DNA of 64,000 bases from Haloferax marinisediminis. GTDB lineage: Archaea; Halobacteriota; Halobacteria; Halobacteriales; Haloferacaceae. The position numbers and the translations under genes are program-made. Positions 7,360 through 16,047 of this stretch are shown piece after piece. The number at the start of each line of letters is the position of its first letter. Within the stretch, counting starts at the first letter, position 1. The stretch spans positions 1,550,001-1,614,000 of the forward strand of contig NZ_WKJP01000001.1 in assembly GCF_009674585.1 (NCBI RefSeq), read 5' to 3'. Below the pieces are notes generated by a model. It worked only from the letters and a program-made list of their open reading frames with translations, had not been told where the DNA came from and did not search any database.

Positions 7360-8439
7360 TCACGGAGTTGGGTTGTACACCTCTGGGTCTGGTTCGCCTT
7401 GAACGTCGATGACGGCGAGACACCCTTTTCGAGCGACGCGACTGAGGGCGTGGTCAACGAGTTTGATTGGGAGCGGAACCGGTGACGAAAGCGTTGCGAT
7501 AACCGCGCTCCCGGGGAGGACGGGTGTCGTTTGGACGTACCGATGTGGGTCGGAGAGGATGGCACCCTGTGGATAGACTTCGTCCCAAACCGACCCGATT
7601 GGGTGGAAGCTACTGAACAGGTTCGGTCCGCCCACGGCGAAATACACGCGCGCAGTCTCACCCGTATTCATCTGCATGTCGTTGTAGCCCTGTGGTCCGA
7701 TGGCGTACTTTTCGCCGTTGATGAGGACGTACGTGGGGTCTTCGCGTGCCATTGCTTCGAAGTCGAATTCGTGGTGACCCCCTTCGCCTGTCTGTCCGTT
7801 CGTGTACAGTTCGTGCTGACCGAGGTAGAACTCGTGGTCTACTGCCGGAAGGCCTTCTTCTGGTTCGACGAGGATTGCACCAAACATCCCTGCCGAGATG
7901 TGGTAATCTAGGTTTGGAACCGCACAGTGGTAGACGAACAAACCGGGGTACGTAACTTTGAACGTGATTCGTTTGGTCTCCCCTGGCATCACTAACGTGT
8001 CTTCGGCACCACCACCCGGTCCACGGACGGCGTGGAGGTCGATGTTGTGCGGCATCGTATTCTCTGGGTGGTTCGAGATGGTGAGGTCGACGGTGTCACC
8101 AACCCGAGTACGGATGAGTGGTCCGGGGATTTGGCTGTTGAACGTCATGTACGTGAACGTCACGCCGGGTTCTATCTCTGCAACCAACTCTCGGGTCTCA
8201 AGTTCGACGACGACTGTGTCGGGAGTCGTCCGTGTAATCGGACCGGGGATGTCCGTGGGGTCTGCCGCAATTCGGTCGATATCGACAGCCATCGCAGGAT
8301 TGAGCGAGGCTGGGGCGGCGACGGATTTCACCGTCACGTTTCCAATGCGCTCGGTTGTGAGACAGCCAGCAACAGCGAGCGTCCCACCAACGCCAACCGT
8401 CTGTAACATTTGTCTTCTGGTTATCGAACGATGAGTCAT
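7360..8439 (-). CDS. nirK: Copper-containing nitrite reductase NirK (exported)
   Basis: 359 residues. The start MTHRSITRRQMLQTV gives a twin-arginine signal, followed by a lipobox-like VAGC at residues 23-26, so it is probably a Tat-exported membrane-anchored lipoprotein. Two cupredoxin domains follow. Copper ligands line up with known NirK spacing: type 1 Cu at H131, C172, H180, M185; type 2 Cu at H136, H171, H330; catalytic D134 and H279. The enzyme reduces nitrite to NO in denitrification. An upstream in-frame start would put 30 residues before the Tat motif, so it was rejected. Divergent from the halocyanin gene, its likely electron donor. Confidence 0.95.
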   Translation of the reverse strand: MTHRSITRRQMLQTVGVGGTLAVAGCLTTERIGNVTVKSVAAPASLNPAMAVDIDRIAADPTDIPGPITRTTPDTVVVELETRELVAEIEPGVTFTYMTFNSQIPGPLIRTRVGDTVDLTISNHPENTMPHNIDLHAVRGPGGGAEDTLVMPGETKRITFKVTYPGLFVYHCAVPNLDYHISAGMFGAILVEPEEGLPAVDHEFYLGQHELYTNGQTGEGGHHEFDFEAMAREDPTYVLINGEKYAIGPQGYNDMQMNTGETARVYFAVGGPNLFSSFHPIGSVWDEVYPQGAILSDPHRYVQTTPVLPGSAVIATLSSPVPLPIKLVDHALSRVARKGCLAVIDVQGEPDPEVYNPTP

Positions 8440-8486
8440 TAGACAGCGGGAAATAGGTGGTGAGATGTCATATCCTAAAGCGCTCA

Positions 8487-8503
8487 TTCTCTGGGTTTGA
8501 GAA
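8487..8503. promoter_or_regulatory. Inverted repeat in the nirK-halocyanin divergent promoter region
   Basis: TTCTC-N7-GAGAA lies in the 104-base gap between the two divergent starts. It is a perfect five-base dyad and could be a regulator site shared by both genes. It does not match the CGAA-N4-TTCG motif described for the haloarchaeal denitrification regulator NarO, so the binding protein is unknown. Confidence 0.35.
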
Positions 8504-8543
8504 GCTGAGAAGCAGATTTTCGTATTCACGTCGTTACTCTTTC

Positions 8544-9599
8544 ATGTATGATTCCATGAGTTCGAATCGCAGTGAGCCGGTGGTCGACCGGCGAACGTTC
8601 ATGCGAACAACTGCCGCCACGGCCGTCACACTCGGGGCAGTTGGGACACTCCCCACCGCGCGTGCGCAAACAGAGATTGAATTCGAATCGTGGTTCGAAG
8701 GCGTAGAAAACTATCGTGGCGTCGTAGACATGACGGGCGAATCGACCGTGACTGTCGCTGTCGGCGCAGAGGGAAACGGCGGTGGGTTTGCGTTCGAGCC
8801 GGCCGCAGTCCGTATCGACCCAGGGACCACAGTCGTCTGGGAGTGGACGGGTGACGGTGGTCTGCACAACGTCGTCGCCGAGGATGGCGCCTACGAGAGC
8901 GAACTGCTCAGTGTGGTCGGCGAGACGTTCGACCACACCTTCGATGGAGAAGGTGTGAGCTACTATGCTTGTACACCACACGAGACCATCGGAATGCGTG
9001 CGGCAATCGTTGTGGGAAACGTCCTCGTTGGGAGTAGCGTCTCATCCTTCCCTGAACCGGACTTCGGAACGTGGTTCGACGACGTAGATAACTACGCAGG
9101 GACTGTCGATGCGACCGGACTCACAGAAGTCACAATCAGCGTCGGGTCGGCCGGCAACGGTGGTAACTTCGCCTTCGAACCGGCAGCAGTCCGAATCGAC
9201 CCCGGAACGACAGTCATCTGGGAGTGGACGGGCCAAGGCGGTACACACAACGTCGTCGCAACAGACGGGACCTTCGAGAGCGAGCTTCTGACAGAGCAAG
9301 GAGAGTCCTTTGCGCTCGAATTTGACGGTGATGGTATCAGTCAGTACGTTTGTGAACCGCACGCCGGGTTAGGGATGAAAGGTGCAGTCGTGGTCGGTGC
9401 AGGGGGACAATATGAGACGACACTGACGCCACTCGGAATGGCCGTCGTCGGGGGTGCGGCCCTCATATTCGGGATTCCATTCGTCTACGCACTCTACAGT
9501 CACTACAAAGAACTCGGCGACCAAGCGACTATCGCGGCAGCAAAACAAGCAGCGAGAACCCCCGAGAACGTCGTGGTAGATACAGAAACGAGTCCGTGA
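8544..9599 (+). CDS. Membrane-anchored double-domain halocyanin (blue copper electron carrier)
   Basis: 351 residues. A Tat motif (DRRTFM) with a hydrophobic segment and AQ cleavage region comes first. Two homologous halocyanin/plastocyanin domains follow. Domain 1 (about 45-160) has ligands H108, C143, H146, M151; domain 2 (about 172-285) has H235, C270, H273, M278. Both keep the complete type 1 copper set. The repeats share GNGG.FAFEPAAVRIDPGTT nearly word for word, showing internal duplication. A C-terminal helix (about 296-321) followed by a charged tail anchors it in the membrane. Given divergent nirK, it most likely passes electrons from the respiratory chain to nitrite reductase. Confidence 0.9.
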   Translation: MYDSMSSNRSEPVVDRRTFMRTTAATAVTLGAVGTLPTARAQTEIEFESWFEGVENYRGVVDMTGESTVTVAVGAEGNGGGFAFEPAAVRIDPGTTVVWEWTGDGGLHNVVAEDGAYESELLSVVGETFDHTFDGEGVSYYACTPHETIGMRAAIVVGNVLVGSSVSSFPEPDFGTWFDDVDNYAGTVDATGLTEVTISVGSAGNGGNFAFEPAAVRIDPGTTVIWEWTGQGGTHNVVATDGTFESELLTEQGESFALEFDGDGISQYVCEPHAGLGMKGAVVVGAGGQYETTLTPLGMAVVGGAALIFGIPFVYALYSHYKELGDQATIAAAKQAARTPENVVVDTETSP

Positions 9600-9647
9600 G
9601 CGGTTTGCCTCTCCCTCGGGAACATATCGAAGTCGAGTGACCCTGCG

Positions 9648-10760
9648 TTACAACCCAGCGACGTCTTCGATGGCGTCGGTGAGTTCCTTGATGGACTCGA
9701 CATCGTGTTCGCCCATGTGGCCGATACGGAACGTCTTCTCGCCGAGTGCCGAGCCGTATCCGTTCGAGAAGGCCATGTCGTACTTCTCGGAGACCTCTTT
9801 GATGGTCGCGGGGACGTCGATACCCTGCGTGTTCTCGATGCAGGCCACCGTCTGGGACTCGTATCCTTCCTCGGGGAACATGTCGAAGTGTTCGTACGCC
9901 CAGTCGCGCGTGTACTCGGCCATCTCTTCGTGGCGACGACTGCGCTGTTTGTGTCCTTCTTCGAGCATGTACTTCATCTGCTTGCGGTAGGCCAGCATGA
10001 CTGGAATCGCTGGCGTGGAGTGCGTCTGGCCCTTCCGGTCGTAGTAGTCGAACGCCCGCTGGAACCCGCCGTACCACGAGGCAGAGTCTTTCTCGACTTC
10101 ACGCTCTCGGGCCTCGTCGCTGACCGCACAGACTGCCAGTCCCGGCGGCATCGCGAATGCCTTCTGCGTCGACGCGAAGATGACGTCGATGTTGTGTTCG
10201 TCGATATCGACGTAGTCACCACCAAGTGCGGACACCGCGTCGACGACGAAGTAGGTGTCCGGGTACTCGGCGACGACGTCGCCAATCTCCTCGATGGGGT
10301 TCCGAACACCGGTCGAACTCTCGTTCATCACACACGAGACGACGTCGTACTGTGTGTCACTCTGTTCGAGATACTCGCGGACGTCTTCGGGCTTGACCGC
10401 CTGTCCCCACTCGTATTCGAGTCTGTCGACGTTCTTCCCCAATCGCTCGGCGACGTTGGCGTGGCGTTCGCTGAAGCTCCCACAGGTCGTACAGAGGATG
10501 TTCTCGTCGACGAGGTTGAGCGTCGAAGCTTCCCAGAACTCCGTCCCCGACGCCGTGAGAATCATCAGGTTGTTGTCGGTGCCGAGGAACTCCTTCGTAT
10601 CCTCGACGATGGTCGTGTAGAGGTCGGTCATTCGGTCCATCCGATGGCCGAACATCGGCTGGCACATCTCCTGGATGACGTCCTCACGCACCTCGGTCGG
10701 CCCCGGGATGTACAGTTTTTTCTCCGGATAGTCGTCTTTGTATTCGCGTTTCTTGGTCAC
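9648..10760 (-). CDS. Class V PLP aminotransferase (serine/alanine-glyoxylate type)
   Basis: About 370 residues beginning MTKKREYKDDYPEKKLYIPG with a GTG start; a GTG nine bases upstream is an alternative and no ATG is available. Family features: PGPTEVREDV, the PLP region ASGTEFWEAS, VVDAVSALGGDYVD (Asp contacting the pyridine ring) and the Schiff-base Lys in FASTQKAF. This fold type I group transfers amino groups from serine or alanine to glyoxylate or pyruvate. A second, differently sequenced member is at 27144-28331. With formate-THF ligase and a glycolate/lactate-oxidase-type enzyme nearby, a role in glyoxylate, serine and glycine exchange is reasonable but inferred. Confidence 0.9.
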   Translation of the reverse strand: MTKKREYKDDYPEKKLYIPGPTEVREDVIQEMCQPMFGHRMDRMTDLYTTIVEDTKEFLGTDNNLMILTASGTEFWEASTLNLVDENILCTTCGSFSERHANVAERLGKNVDRLEYEWGQAVKPEDVREYLEQSDTQYDVVSCVMNESSTGVRNPIEEIGDVVAEYPDTYFVVDAVSALGGDYVDIDEHNIDVIFASTQKAFAMPPGLAVCAVSDEAREREVEKDSASWYGGFQRAFDYYDRKGQTHSTPAIPVMLAYRKQMKYMLEEGHKQRSRRHEEMAEYTRDWAYEHFDMFPEEGYESQTVACIENTQGIDVPATIKEVSEKYDMAFSNGYGSALGEKTFRIGHMGEHDVESIKELTDAIEDVAGL

Positions 10761-10885
10761 GGAAACCACCTACGTACGGGTTACTGTGAAGCGGGATAGC
10801 AAGGTACTTTTGATTCCGACACCGGCCACGATTCCGAACGGACAGCGTGGCGTCGCTACTGCTTCGACACCCCGGTCGAGCGAAG

Positions 10886-11662: not shown

Positions 11663-12820
11663 ATGAACGACCGAGTTTCGGTGACGTCAGTCGGTGGTGA
11701 CCCCGTCGCTCGCCACCCCACCGAGTTCGTCGAGCGGAAAGGTATCGGCCATCCCGATTCGCTCTGCGATGGCGTCGCCGAGGCCGTCTCGCGCCGACTC
11801 TCTCGCTTCTACCGTGACGAATTCGGTCACATCCTCCACCACAACACAGACAAAGTCCACCTCGGAGCGGGACAGTCTCAGCCGGCGTTCGGTGGTGGGT
11901 CGGTCGTCGAACCGATATACGTCCTCGTCGGTGGTCGTGCGACCACGACAGTCGGTGGTGAGTCGGTCCCCGTCGACGAACTTGCGACCGCCGCTGCACG
12001 GGACTACCTCCTCCAGACGGTGCCGGAGCTTTCCCCCGAACACGTCGTCGTCGAGACGCGAATCGGGCAGACGTCGAGCGACTTAGGGTCTCTCTTCGAA
12101 CGCGGTGACGAACCGTTGGCTAACGATACGAGTCTCGGTGTTGGCTACGCTCCGGGAACGCCGACCGAACGGTTCGTCCGAACACTCGAACCGCGACTCC
12201 ACAGTGAACTCACAGCCGTCGGAAAGGACGTGAAACTGATGGCAGTTCGCCGTGGAAACCGTCTGTCTCTCACGGTTGCGGCGGCAGTCATCGACTCTCA
12301 CGTCGAAACCCTGGGCGAGTACCGCGACGTCATCGACCGCATCGAAGCCCTTGCAGAACAGCACGCGGCCGACACCATCGACCTGCCTGTCTCGGTCACG
12401 GTGAACAACGCGGACAACTACAAGGAAGAATCACTCTATCTGACGACGACCGGGCTCTCTGCCGAAGCAGGCGACGATGGGTGTGTTGGCCGTGGAAATC
12501 GTGCGAACGGGTTGATTACACCGTCTCGACCGATGAGTTTGGAAGCCACGGCGGGGAAGAACCCAGTGACACACGTCGGGAAACTGTACAACCTCCTCTC
12601 GCTTCGAATCGCTCGGCGACTCGGCGACGAACTCGGTGCGACCTACAGCAGTGTGCAACTGCTCTCTCGAATCGGCGACCCAGTTTCGGAACCACAGGCT
12701 GTCGACGTCGTCACCACGGTCACCGACGACGACGTGGTAACGAAGGCGGTTGCCGACGAATTCGAGCGGATAGACGAACTACGGTCGGACCTCCTCGCCG
12801 GCCGTGTTGCAGTCTTTTGA
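11663..12820 (+). CDS. mat: Archaeal-type S-adenosylmethionine synthetase
   Basis: 385 residues of the archaeal MAT family, unrelated in primary sequence to bacterial MetK. Diagnostic blocks: [22 protein letters not shown] near the N-terminus, [16 protein letters not shown], the [13 protein letters not shown] substrate loop, and the C-terminal SVGRGN-like block ([20 protein letters not shown]) with [13 protein letters not shown]. It makes SAM from methionine and ATP. It is somewhat shorter than the roughly 400-residue archaeal norm, with a trimmed N-terminus, so it may be a second paralogue rather than the housekeeping copy; this is an inference. Upstream is a divergent methyltransferase, downstream the Rieske-ThDP fusion gene. 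Confidence 0.9.
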
Positions 12821-12898: not shown

Positions 12899-14884
12899 AT
12901 GACGAACGAGTCAGCACCGGACACCGGCGACCTTCGCTGGCACAAGGCCCTCGACCCCAACGAACTCCCAGAGGGGCGCGTGACGGCCGTCTCCTTCGGC
13001 GGTACGACTGTCTGTATGACCCACTACGACGGGCAGTACGCAGCTATCGACAACGCCTGTCCCCACCAAGGTGGGCCACTGGGTGAAGGCTCGATAGAGA
13101 AGGGGTTGCTCCGGTGTCCGTGGCATGGGTGGGACTTCGACCCACTCACCGGACAGTCCCCGGGTGACCACGACGACTGCACGCTCGTGTACGCAGTCGA
13201 AGAACGAGACGATGGAATCTACGTCGGCCTCCCACCAGAACGAGTACGAGAACGGACCGTCTCCGACGTGATGGTGGAGACGATGACGGCGTGGGGCGTC
13301 TCACAGGTGTGGGGTATCGTCGGCCACTCCAATCTGGGACTCGCCGACGCCTTCCGCGAGGCGTCCGAGCGAGGCGACCTTTCCTACTACGGTGTCAGAC
13401 ACGAAGGGGCGGCAGCGTTCGCAGCCTCAGCGTACGGAAAACTCACGGGCGAGCCCGCGGCGTGCTTCGCCATCGCCGGCCCGGGAGCGACCAACCTCCT
13501 CACCGGCCTCTGGGACGCCAACGTTGACCGCGCACCAGTTCTCGCACTCACCGGGCAAGTCGCGACGCAAGTTCTGGGGACTGGAAACTTCCAAGAGGTC
13601 GACCTCGAAGCGGCATACGGCGACGTTGCGCTCTTCGAACAGACGGTGCTGCCGAACAGTGACCACGCCGAACTGATGACACGGGCAGCGAAGACGGCGC
13701 TCCTCGAAGGGGGCGTGTCGCATCTCGTCTTCCCAGACGAGGTACAGACGATTCCTGCGGATGGTGCGAAAGCCGGTAGCCCCGAGGGGCGACTCACGCG
13801 GCGAGATATCGCCCCACCTTCGGCATCGATTCAGGAGGCAGTGGACTTGCTCGCAGACGCGACTCGACCGCTCATCATCGTCGGCCACGGCGCTCGATTC
13901 GATATGGACCGTGTCGTCGCCCTCGCCGAACACCTCGACTGCCCGGTGGTGACGACGTTCAAAGCGAAGGGGCAACTCTCAGACACCCATCCACTCGCAG
14001 GCGGCGTCCTCGGGCGGAGTGGAACACCTATCGCGAGCCACTTCATGAACGAGTCAGACCTTCTCCTCGTCTTCGGGGCGAGTTTCTCGAACCACACGGG
14101 AATCTCCGAGTACAAGCGAATCGTCCACGTCGACCACGACCCGATGGTCCTGGGCAAGCACCACAGTGTCGACGTTCCCGTGTGGGGTGATGTGGGTGTC
14201 ACCGTCGACATCCTCAGAGACCGACTGAACGAGCTAGACCTGCACGCCGAGAGTCAACGCGCCGAAGTCGCAGAGCGGTGGGATATCTGGCGAGCAGAGA
14301 AGGCGACGAGACGCGACCAACCACCGGAACGTGGCGTCAACTACGCGACTGTATTCGACGCGATGAGCCGACTCCTCCCCGAGAACGCAATCGTGCCGGT
14401 CGACGTCGGCAACAACACCTACGCCTTCGGTCGCTACTTCGAATGCACCGACCACACGGTCTTGATGTCCGGCTATCTCGGGTCCATCGGGTTTGCATTC
14501 CCCGCCGCCCTCGGGGCGTGGGCGGCGACCCGCGAACCCGACTCACCGTTCGCGGGGCGACCAGTCGTCTCGGTTTCGAGCGACGGTGGATTCGGTCAGT
14601 ACATGGGCGAACTGACGACGGCAGTCAAGTACGACATGAACCTCACGCACGTCCTCTTGACCGATGACGAACTGGGGAAAATTAGCAAAGAACAACGCGA
14701 CGGTGGGTGGCCAGTCTGGCAGACAGACCTCGTGAACCCGGACTTCGCTGCGTACGCCGAGAACTGCGGCGCACGCGGATTCCGAGTCGAATCACCAGCA
14801 GCGCTCGAACCCGCACTCGAAGATGCACTCTCCTTCGATGGGCCGGCGCTCGTCGAGGTGCTGACCGATGCGAATCCAGTCTGA
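12899..14884 (+). CDS. Fusion of a Rieske [2Fe-2S] domain and a thiamine-diphosphate enzyme
   Basis: 661 residues. Residues 13-112 are a Rieske domain with a complete cluster set: C54-P-H56 and C73-P-W-H76. From about 118 to the end is a three-domain ThDP enzyme of the acetolactate synthase / pyruvate oxidase / benzoylformate decarboxylase superfamily. It has catalytic Glu169 (VRHEGAAAF), AGPGATNLLTGLWDA, a central domain about 300-450, and the ThDP-Mg segment SSDGGFGQYMGEL followed by LLTDDELGKI, where family members usually have NN instead of DD. The Rieske unit could pass electrons from the ThDP intermediate, making an oxidase/dehydrogenase rather than a synthase; that is inference. The frame is continuous across the junction. 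Confidence 0.9.
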   Translation: MTNESAPDTGDLRWHKALDPNELPEGRVTAVSFGGTTVCMTHYDGQYAAIDNACPHQGGPLGEGSIEKGLLRCPWHGWDFDPLTGQSPGDHDDCTLVYAVEERDDGIYVGLPPERVRERTVSDVMVETMTAWGVSQVWGIVGHSNLGLADAFREASERGDLSYYGVRHEGAAAFAASAYGKLTGEPAACFAIAGPGATNLLTGLWDANVDRAPVLALTGQVATQVLGTGNFQEVDLEAAYGDVALFEQTVLPNSDHAELMTRAAKTALLEGGVSHLVFPDEVQTIPADGAKAGSPEGRLTRRDIAPPSASIQEAVDLLADATRPLIIVGHGARFDMDRVVALAEHLDCPVVTTFKAKGQLSDTHPLAGGVLGRSGTPIASHFMNESDLLLVFGASFSNHTGISEYKRIVHVDHDPMVLGKHHSVDVPVWGDVGVTVDILRDRLNELDLHAESQRAEVAERWDIWRAEKATRRDQPPERGVNYATVFDAMSRLLPENAIVPVDVGNNTYAFGRYFECTDHTVLMSGYLGSIGFAFPAALGAWAATREPDSPFAGRPVVSVSSDGGFGQYMGELTTAVKYDMNLTHVLLTDDELGKISKEQRDGGWPVWQTDLVNPDFAAYAENCGARGFRVESPAALEPALEDALSFDGPALVEVLTDANPV

Positions 14885-14934: not shown

Positions 14935-15924
14935 TCAGTCGTCGGCTTCGACGGATTCTGCCCGCGGTATCGTTACGTCCGCCAATCCACCCTCGATTTG
15001 CTCGCGCTGGCTTTCGAACTTCCCGGGGAGGACGAGTCGTCCACCGAGGTCGTCGAGCGGTTCGTCGCTCGCGTAGCCCGGGCCGTTCGTGGCGAGTTCG
15101 AACAGCACACCGCCGAACTCTCGGAAGTAGACCGAACGGAACCAGTGGCGGTTGATCTGCTGTGTCGGGCGCAGTCCCGCCGACTGGACGGCCGCGCGCA
15201 TCGATTCCTGGTCTTCGTCGGTCGGCGTCTGGAAGGCGACGTGGTGGACCGTCCCGTGTCCTTGCCGACTGCCCTCGATTGTCGGGAGCACGTCGACGTA
15301 CTTGCCGACCGGACCGGATGCGGCGAATCGAGTTCGCTCGTCACCCGGCGTGTCGCCCTGTGCCGCTTCAGTTCCGACTTCTTCCAGCCCCATCGTTTCG
15401 AGCAGGCCCTTCGTCGGTTCTGGGTCAGCAAGCCAGAGCGTGACCGAGTGGAATCCGCGGATTGCGGCCGACTCGGGGACGAACTCAGTCCACGGGACCG
15501 TGGGGTCGTCGTCCGGGATGTCGACTTCCACGAGTTCGACCGGGAGGCCGTCGGGGTCACGGAACGGGAGGACCGTCTCTCCGAAGCGTTCTATTCGGTC
15601 GTCGTAATCGACGCCGTAGTCGTCGAATCGGTCTTCCCAGTAGTCGAGGCTCCCGTCTGGGACGCGGAACGCAGTTCGGGAGACCTGTCCCGTCCCGACT
15701 TTCCCACGCGAGAGGTGTTCCCACGGGAAGAACGTCATGCTCGTTCCGGGCGTGCCCTCAGCGTCCGTGAAGAAGAAATGGTACGTGCTGGGGTCGTCTT
15801 GGTTGATAGAGCGCTTGGCGAGTCTCAGGCCGAGCGTTTCGACCCAGAAGTCCAGATTCTGCTGGGGGTCGCCTGCCATACACGTTACGTGGTGAATTCC
15901 CGGTGTCGGAGTGGGTGTTGCCAT
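14935..15924 (-). CDS. VOC-superfamily ring-cleaving dioxygenase (MhqO-like)
   Basis: 329 residues with two vicinal-oxygen-chelate halves. The first opens with TPGIHHVTCMAGDPQQNLDFW and the second near AIRGFHSVTLWLADPE. Metal-ligand candidates are the His of GIHHVT, His of GTVHHVAF and the Glu of GGVLFELATN, the usual 2-His-1-carboxylate pattern. The architecture matches hydroquinone/catechol-type dioxygenases and glyoxalase-like proteins with about 310-330 residues. Likely role: breakdown or detoxification of aromatic or quinone compounds. It is convergent with the Rieske-ThDP fusion gene, ending only about 50 bases from it. Confidence 0.86.
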   Translation of the reverse strand: MATPTPTPGIHHVTCMAGDPQQNLDFWVETLGLRLAKRSINQDDPSTYHFFFTDAEGTPGTSMTFFPWEHLSRGKVGTGQVSRTAFRVPDGSLDYWEDRFDDYGVDYDDRIERFGETVLPFRDPDGLPVELVEVDIPDDDPTVPWTEFVPESAAIRGFHSVTLWLADPEPTKGLLETMGLEEVGTEAAQGDTPGDERTRFAASGPVGKYVDVLPTIEGSRQGHGTVHHVAFQTPTDEDQESMRAAVQSAGLRPTQQINRHWFRSVYFREFGGVLFELATNGPGYASDEPLDDLGGRLVLPGKFESQREQIEGGLADVTIPRAESVEADD

Positions 15925-16047
15925 TGAACCATAATATGGGCTGGAAGGACTTGAGTTTCTGGCGACGTGAGTGTTACCGGGTTACGGCGAGGTCGACTGT
16001 TGGTGTTCAGGGAGCGCCCCAACCCACGAGACACCGACGGCAATCGT

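Follow-up and report, generated by a model that had tools for sequence, protein, structure and literature searches.

Pyruvate oxidase (POX) and acetohydroxyacid synthase are thiamine diphosphate (ThDP) enzymes whose central domain holds FAD; POX uses O2 as electron acceptor, and PoxB, which has a membrane-binding tail, uses quinone. ThDP is combined with an Fe-S electron outlet in the 2-oxoacid:ferredoxin oxidoreductases (PFOR/OFOR). The gene analyzed here lies in a 64,000-nucleotide stretch of Haloferax marinisediminis contig NZ_WKJP01000001.1 (hereafter the window) and encodes a Rieske domain and a ThDP enzyme in a single chain. PFOR/OFOR resemble this protein in joining ThDP to an Fe-S electron outlet, but they belong to another branch of the ThDP superfamily, carry [4Fe-4S] clusters, depend on CoA and have no Rieske domain. 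Acetohydroxyacid synthase is a member of the same superfamily and gives similar scores for the central domain, but is an anabolic carboligase without a fused Fe-S domain. Closest by sequence profile and fold are POX, PoxB and PQO, at about 27-28% identity, from which the fusion differs by its extra N-terminal Rieske domain and, in haloarchaea, by the change of a Mg-ligand Asn to Asp.

Architecture of the fusion and its relation to pyruvate oxidase

The fusion is encoded by an unbroken, ATG-initiated reading frame on the forward strand (12899..14881, stop codon to 14884; 661 aa). Following a poorly conserved N-terminus (residues 1-13), it comprises a Rieske [2Fe-2S] domain (residues 14-112, 12938..13234, +; PF00355 over residues 14-86, E 9e-17), a short linker placed from regional conservation at about residues 113-119 (13235..13255, +), and the three domains of a POX-type ThDP enzyme, each of which exceeded its Pfam cut-off (E 1e-31 to 1e-34). 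These are the PYR domain (TPP_enzyme_N, PF02776; residues 120-237, 13256..13609, +), with E169 and F231-Q232 located from invariant columns and the PoxB/LpPOX (L. plantarum POX) alignment, the central domain (TPP_enzyme_M, PF00205; residues 311-437, 13829..14209, +), with conserved L371-G-R-S374, S395-F-S397 and D412, and the PP domain (TPP_enzyme_C, PF02775; residues 502-654, 14402..14860, +), with D562, D589 and K594-I-S-K-E598-Q. The AlphaFold model of the fusion was confident (mean pLDDT 88.8, pTM 0.86).

The single-chain fusion, its continuous frame through the junction, Rieske ligands C54, H56, C73 and H76 and catalytic E169 were all as the preliminary description had read them, and these five residues were invariant in 82 aligned members. 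The Rieske motif, read directly, is C54-P-H56-(16)-C73-PW-H76, and lacks the extra cysteines of bc-type Rieske proteins, which assigns the domain to the ferredoxin/oxygenase type. That the junction might arise from a frameshift or misassembly, or be a fusion private to this strain, has nothing in its favor except the odd architecture; the continuous frame, together with identically built orthologues from many separate assemblies, some of them complete plasmids, makes the chance of an artefact practically negligible.

At least 98.5% invariance was found at 193 of the 661 positions across the 82 aligned proteins, including the Rieske ligands, E169, F231, Q232, D562, K594, K597 and E598, and the window protein matched the family at every column conserved at 97% or above. 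Comparison of the window gene with that of H. larsenii gave a dN/dS of 0.09, and the window gene is under strong purifying selection. In the Mg-binding region of the PP domain, the ligand D562 lies in an invariant D562-G-G and the second ligand position is D589. The preliminary description had reported DD in place of the usual NN after the ThDP motif; the replacement of Asn by Asp at 589 stands, but the pair had been misplaced, as alignment to LpPOX gives T588-D589 rather than D589-D590, with D590 the next, variable residue. Asp stood at position 589 in the 7 haloarchaeal proteins alone, the other 75 of the 82 aligned members, every bacterial one included, having Asn; judging from this alignment the reported DD is a minor haloarchaeal detail, a single conservative change at a Mg-ligand position.

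The best matches in the PDB, by both sequence and fold, were PoxB (3eya), LpPOX (1pow/4fee) and C. glutamicum PQO (9ev5), all sharing the three-domain ThDP fold with the fusion (prob 1.00, TM about 0.7-0.9). Much of the POX active site is retained: the catalytic Glu, F121-Q122 and E483 of LpPOX correspond to E169, F231-Q232 and E598 of the fusion, and F231-Q232 and E598 are invariant. At the active-site Phe (F479 in LpPOX, F465 in PoxB; the aligned position is the one mutated to W in 2ez4) the fusion instead has the invariant K594, and its substrate may therefore differ from pyruvate. The best NCBIfam match, pyruvate oxidase NF006377, reached 382 of the 742 bits set as its cut-off, and the SpxB model 295 of 638. 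Because of K594 and these scores below the curated cut-offs, the fusion is not classed as a pyruvate oxidase. It also lacks the lipid- and membrane-binding C-terminal tail of PoxB: the alignment reaches residue 527 of PoxB's 572, and the fusion ends 5 residues further on. The FAD-contact positions of PoxB, which we take to be those of its annotation, were mapped onto the fusion by means of the PoxB alignment; the equivalent positions are conserved within the fusion family, and the fusion probably contains FAD as well. Kinship with pyruvate oxidase makes oxidation of a 2-oxoacid plausible, and the fusion is most likely a POX-family 2-oxoacid oxidoreductase that exchanges electrons via its Rieske cluster.

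Spread of the fusion and exchange of its N-terminal carrier

The nearest relative found (84% identity) is carried on a complete Haloferax larsenii plasmid, and a 75% orthologue is present in another genome, G018. When species genomes were scanned, the best 80 of 452 loci were all full-length fusions at 60-76% identity. These 80 loci came from about 17 bacterial and archaeal phyla, among them haloarchaea, Acidobacteriota, Gemmatimonadota, Rhodothermota, Myxococcota, Nitrospirota, Nitrospinota and Planctomycetota, as well as Cyanobacteria, Proteobacteria, Bacteroidota, Calditrichota and others. A more distant member (53% identity) was found on a Mycobacteroides plasmid. Rieske fusions in G036, G029, G002 and G010, which matched the Rieske half, proved to be a different protein and were set aside.

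Within haloarchaea the distribution is patchy, with a match to the ThDP fusion in 18 of 391 genomes (E below 1e-100) and in none of the 14 other Haloferax species examined. In G006 and similar congeners the genes for an aminotransferase and a dioxygenase lie about 90 bp apart; in the window the same two genes (aminotransferase, 9646-10823; dioxygenase, 14935-15990) flank a block holding an S-adenosylmethionine (SAM) synthetase gene and the fusion. Haloarchaeal fusion genes formed one clade (SH-aLRT 100) nested among bacterial ones (96), a placement that suggests acquisition from bacteria by transfer. In G015 the fusion is truncated after about residue 230 (L032:6287-7069, -) and appears as a decaying gene.

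When 297 Acidobacteriota genomes were searched with the ThDP half as query, the Rieske domain was present in all 16 relatives above 60% identity (63-68%), and the next ThDP relatives followed only at 31-37%. The closest relative without a Rieske domain in this phylum has a rubredoxin at its N-terminus (PF00301, E 8e-12). Rubredoxin-ThDP fusions are common in the archaeal phylum of the window, in anaerobic archaea (L195-L206), where a rubredoxin is also fused to the Glu_synthase domain of glutamate synthase (GltS; PF00301 E 7e-16; L217-L221), often in the same genomes. Among 295 genomes, 31 had rubredoxin-ThDP, 25 rubredoxin-GltS and 17 both (Fisher 1e-13, shared ancestry ignored). The rubredoxin-ThDP proteins resemble the window fusion in that their ThDP part, which falls in the same clade, is preceded by an N-terminal one-electron Fe-S carrier, and in that they co-occur with a GltS domain bearing the same carrier, as the Rieske pair described below does; they differ in the carrier itself, in overall sequence (36% identity) and in having LKNIKKEQ for LGKISKEQ. 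Rieske-ThDP, rubredoxin-ThDP and the ThDP proteins of unfused pairs grouped in a single clade (SH-aLRT 94) that excluded other ThDP enzymes. Such unfused pairs occur in one archaeal family (f18), in which the GltS and ThDP genes are adjacent and both without a fused carrier. In another archaeal family the GltS domain is fused to a cysteine-rich DUF2769 (L236:1566-2990, +), possibly a further carrier or metal module.

The presence of Rieske domains on both enzymes in some organisms and of rubredoxin on both in others is the strongest evidence that these domains act as one-electron ports and that the enzymes are partners: it strongly supports a port function for the N-terminal domain, and supports a functional link between the ThDP and GltS enzymes. 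The built-in one-electron carrier put forward in the preliminary description thus gained support from retention of the fusion across phyla and from substitution of rubredoxin for Rieske in anaerobic archaea; the wide spread of the family and the GltS partner had not been foreseen. A reported association of a ThDP enzyme with rubredoxin was considered as a precedent and rejected, the rubredoxin-like protein in that case being a separate zinc ribbon of an acetone pathway (PMC8084838).

A glutamate-synthase-like partner and its absence from the window genome

In G018 the gene directly downstream of the ThDP fusion encodes a Rieske domain fused to the FMN domain of glutamate synthase (Rieske-GltS). 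A Rieske-Glu_synthase gene was found within 8 kb of the ThDP fusion at 42 of 81 loci, many of which lie on short contigs, and 12 of 13 checked genomes without a nearby copy had Rieske-GltS elsewhere. Overall, the partner was present in the same genome in 16 of the 17 other genomes checked, but not in the window genome. Across 391 haloarchaea, the ThDP fusion was found in 18, the GltS fusion in 20 and both in 14 (Fisher 6e-18, shared ancestry ignored). A DUF5996-like gene often adjoins these Rieske-GltS/Rieske-ThDP loci.

In the partner the three [3Fe-4S] cysteines and the K..Q..K motif are kept, as are the Rieske ligands in every sequence that covered them. GltB and Fd-GltS (1llw) have the same FMN/[3Fe-4S] Glu_synthase domain, three Cys and K..Q..K included, but the partner has no glutaminase domain and carries Rieske (or rubredoxin) in place of the usual electron input; its putative function is glutamate-synthase-like. 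One contig (G026, L033:1-1506, +; genome 56% complete) reads in frame from a GltS-type FMN domain into the C-terminal part of Rieske-ThDP, and was discarded as a likely assembly or recombination chimera. A third Rieske fusion, in which a Ferric_reductase-like (MsrQ-related) membrane domain precedes a C-terminal Rieske domain, lies beside some bacterial loci (L107:6368-7426, -; L093:4544-5608, -; L087:1012-2820, +) and is a possible membrane electron partner.

Rieske-GltS was not found in the window genome (95% complete) or on the H. larsenii plasmid; it is present on three other plasmids of haloarchaea that bear the ThDP fusion. G347 keeps the ThDP fusion with GltS reduced to a 63-residue remnant; no GltS fusion was found in the genome of G015, where the ThDP fusion is itself truncated. 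From these sequences, the ThDP-Rieske enzyme can evidently persist under selection without its GltS partner, which points to an acceptor that is shared or can be replaced, and away from an obligate complex; with Rieske-GltS missing from the window genome, a strict two-enzyme circuit cannot be general.

Candidate electron route, alternatives and genomic surroundings

From architecture, conservation, association, carrier exchange and selection, we infer, at somewhat better than even confidence, a POX-family ThDP enzyme, probably containing FAD, with an N-terminal Rieske electron outlet and usually paired with Rieske-GltS. The Rieske domain would take the place that the tail and quinone have in PoxB, or O2 in POX, as acceptor. 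A 2-oxoacid would bind ThDP and be decarboxylated, and two electrons would pass to the flavin and then out (or in) singly via the Rieske cluster. Its counterpart in most organisms would be an FMN/[3Fe-4S] GltS-type enzyme with a Rieske port of its own, the two exchanging electrons directly or via a common carrier; in anaerobic archaea rubredoxin would serve as the port on both enzymes, and in Haloferax (the window and the H. larsenii plasmid) the ThDP-Rieske enzyme would use an acceptor other than Rieske-GltS. We put forward more tentatively, as a possibility short of even odds, that oxidation of the 2-oxoacid powers the FMN enzyme directly, through a common, exchangeable one-electron module, independently of NAD(P)H or free ferredoxin.

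Electrons might also flow in the opposite direction, the Rieske ports importing them from a membrane cytochrome or other donor for a GltS-like reductive amination and a reductive or carboligation step on ThDP. This would suit the partner's homology to ferredoxin/NADPH-dependent GltS, an enzyme that accepts electrons, and the Ferric_reductase-Rieske membrane protein next to some loci; but the POX branch is normally oxidative and electrons at the quinol level would be poor donors for ThDP chemistry, and we consider this direction unlikely. Improbable, too, is a Rieske domain that lies outside the catalytic path and switches the ThDP enzyme on and off as a redox or oxygen sensor. Replacement by rubredoxin, and the sharing of one type of carrier by both enzymes, fit an electron port better than a sensor, and the closest ThDP relatives, POX and PoxB, are redox enzymes, despite the location of several haloarchaeal plasmid copies amid redox/stress-type genes (DsrE, pirin, rhodanese, MerA-like reductases, thioredoxin-like) and the Haloferax copies that have no GltS partner. 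A non-redox, acetolactate-synthase-like decarboxylase or carboligase with a vestigial Rieske domain would accord with the good scores of acetolactate synthase models and with K594 in place of POX F479; given that the Rieske ligands do not vary across about 17 phyla and rank with the most conserved residues, and that the window copy is under purifying selection, we regard it as very unlikely.

The open-access papers that were searched contained no description of a Rieske domain with ThDP, pyruvate oxidase or glutamate synthase, nor of this system under DUF5996 or under a rubredoxin domain combined with glutamate synthase or acetolactate synthase. The data point to Rieske-ThDP and Rieske-GltS, or their rubredoxin versions, as an undescribed pair of electron-exchanging enzymes. 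Among POX-family ThDP enzymes, the proposed protein would be the first whose electrons leave through a Rieske domain, and the pair, if the proposal is correct, a widespread two-enzyme redox system using Rieske in aerobes and rubredoxin in anaerobic archaea. Parallel exchange of Rieske and rubredoxin on two co-occurring enzymes illustrates how a redox module is swappable with oxygen regime while the pairing is retained. The proposal also offers a testable function for many genes of about 17 phyla annotated only as 'thiamine pyrophosphate-binding protein' or 'glutamate synthase-related protein'.

No operon or interacting protein for the fusion was evident within the window. The upstream neighbor is an archaeal SAM synthetase (11663..12820, +; PF01941, E 9e-135), of which a second, diverged copy exists elsewhere in the genome (C1:1909508), and it is probably unrelated to the fusion. 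The convergent downstream neighbor, a glyoxalase/ring-cleaving dioxygenase-like gene (14935..15924, -; PF00903), is present by synteny in congeners without the fusion. Elsewhere in the window, two halocyanin (blue copper) domains are encoded at 8457-9599, overlapping a multicopper-oxidase-like reading frame on the opposite strand (7360-8529). Several haloarchaeal genera encode a protein of ~600 aa with an N-terminal Rieske domain followed by about 450 residues without a Pfam match (L035:4551-6356, -; also L034, L036 and L037). Haloarchaeal plasmid copies of the fusion (L207, L209, L210 and L211) lie amid genes for DUF3179, NAD(P)H-hydrate epimerase, DsrE, MerA/dihydrolipoyl-dehydrogenase-like, TauE/SafE and Na+/H+ antiporter proteins, loci that resemble a mobile stress or redox island.
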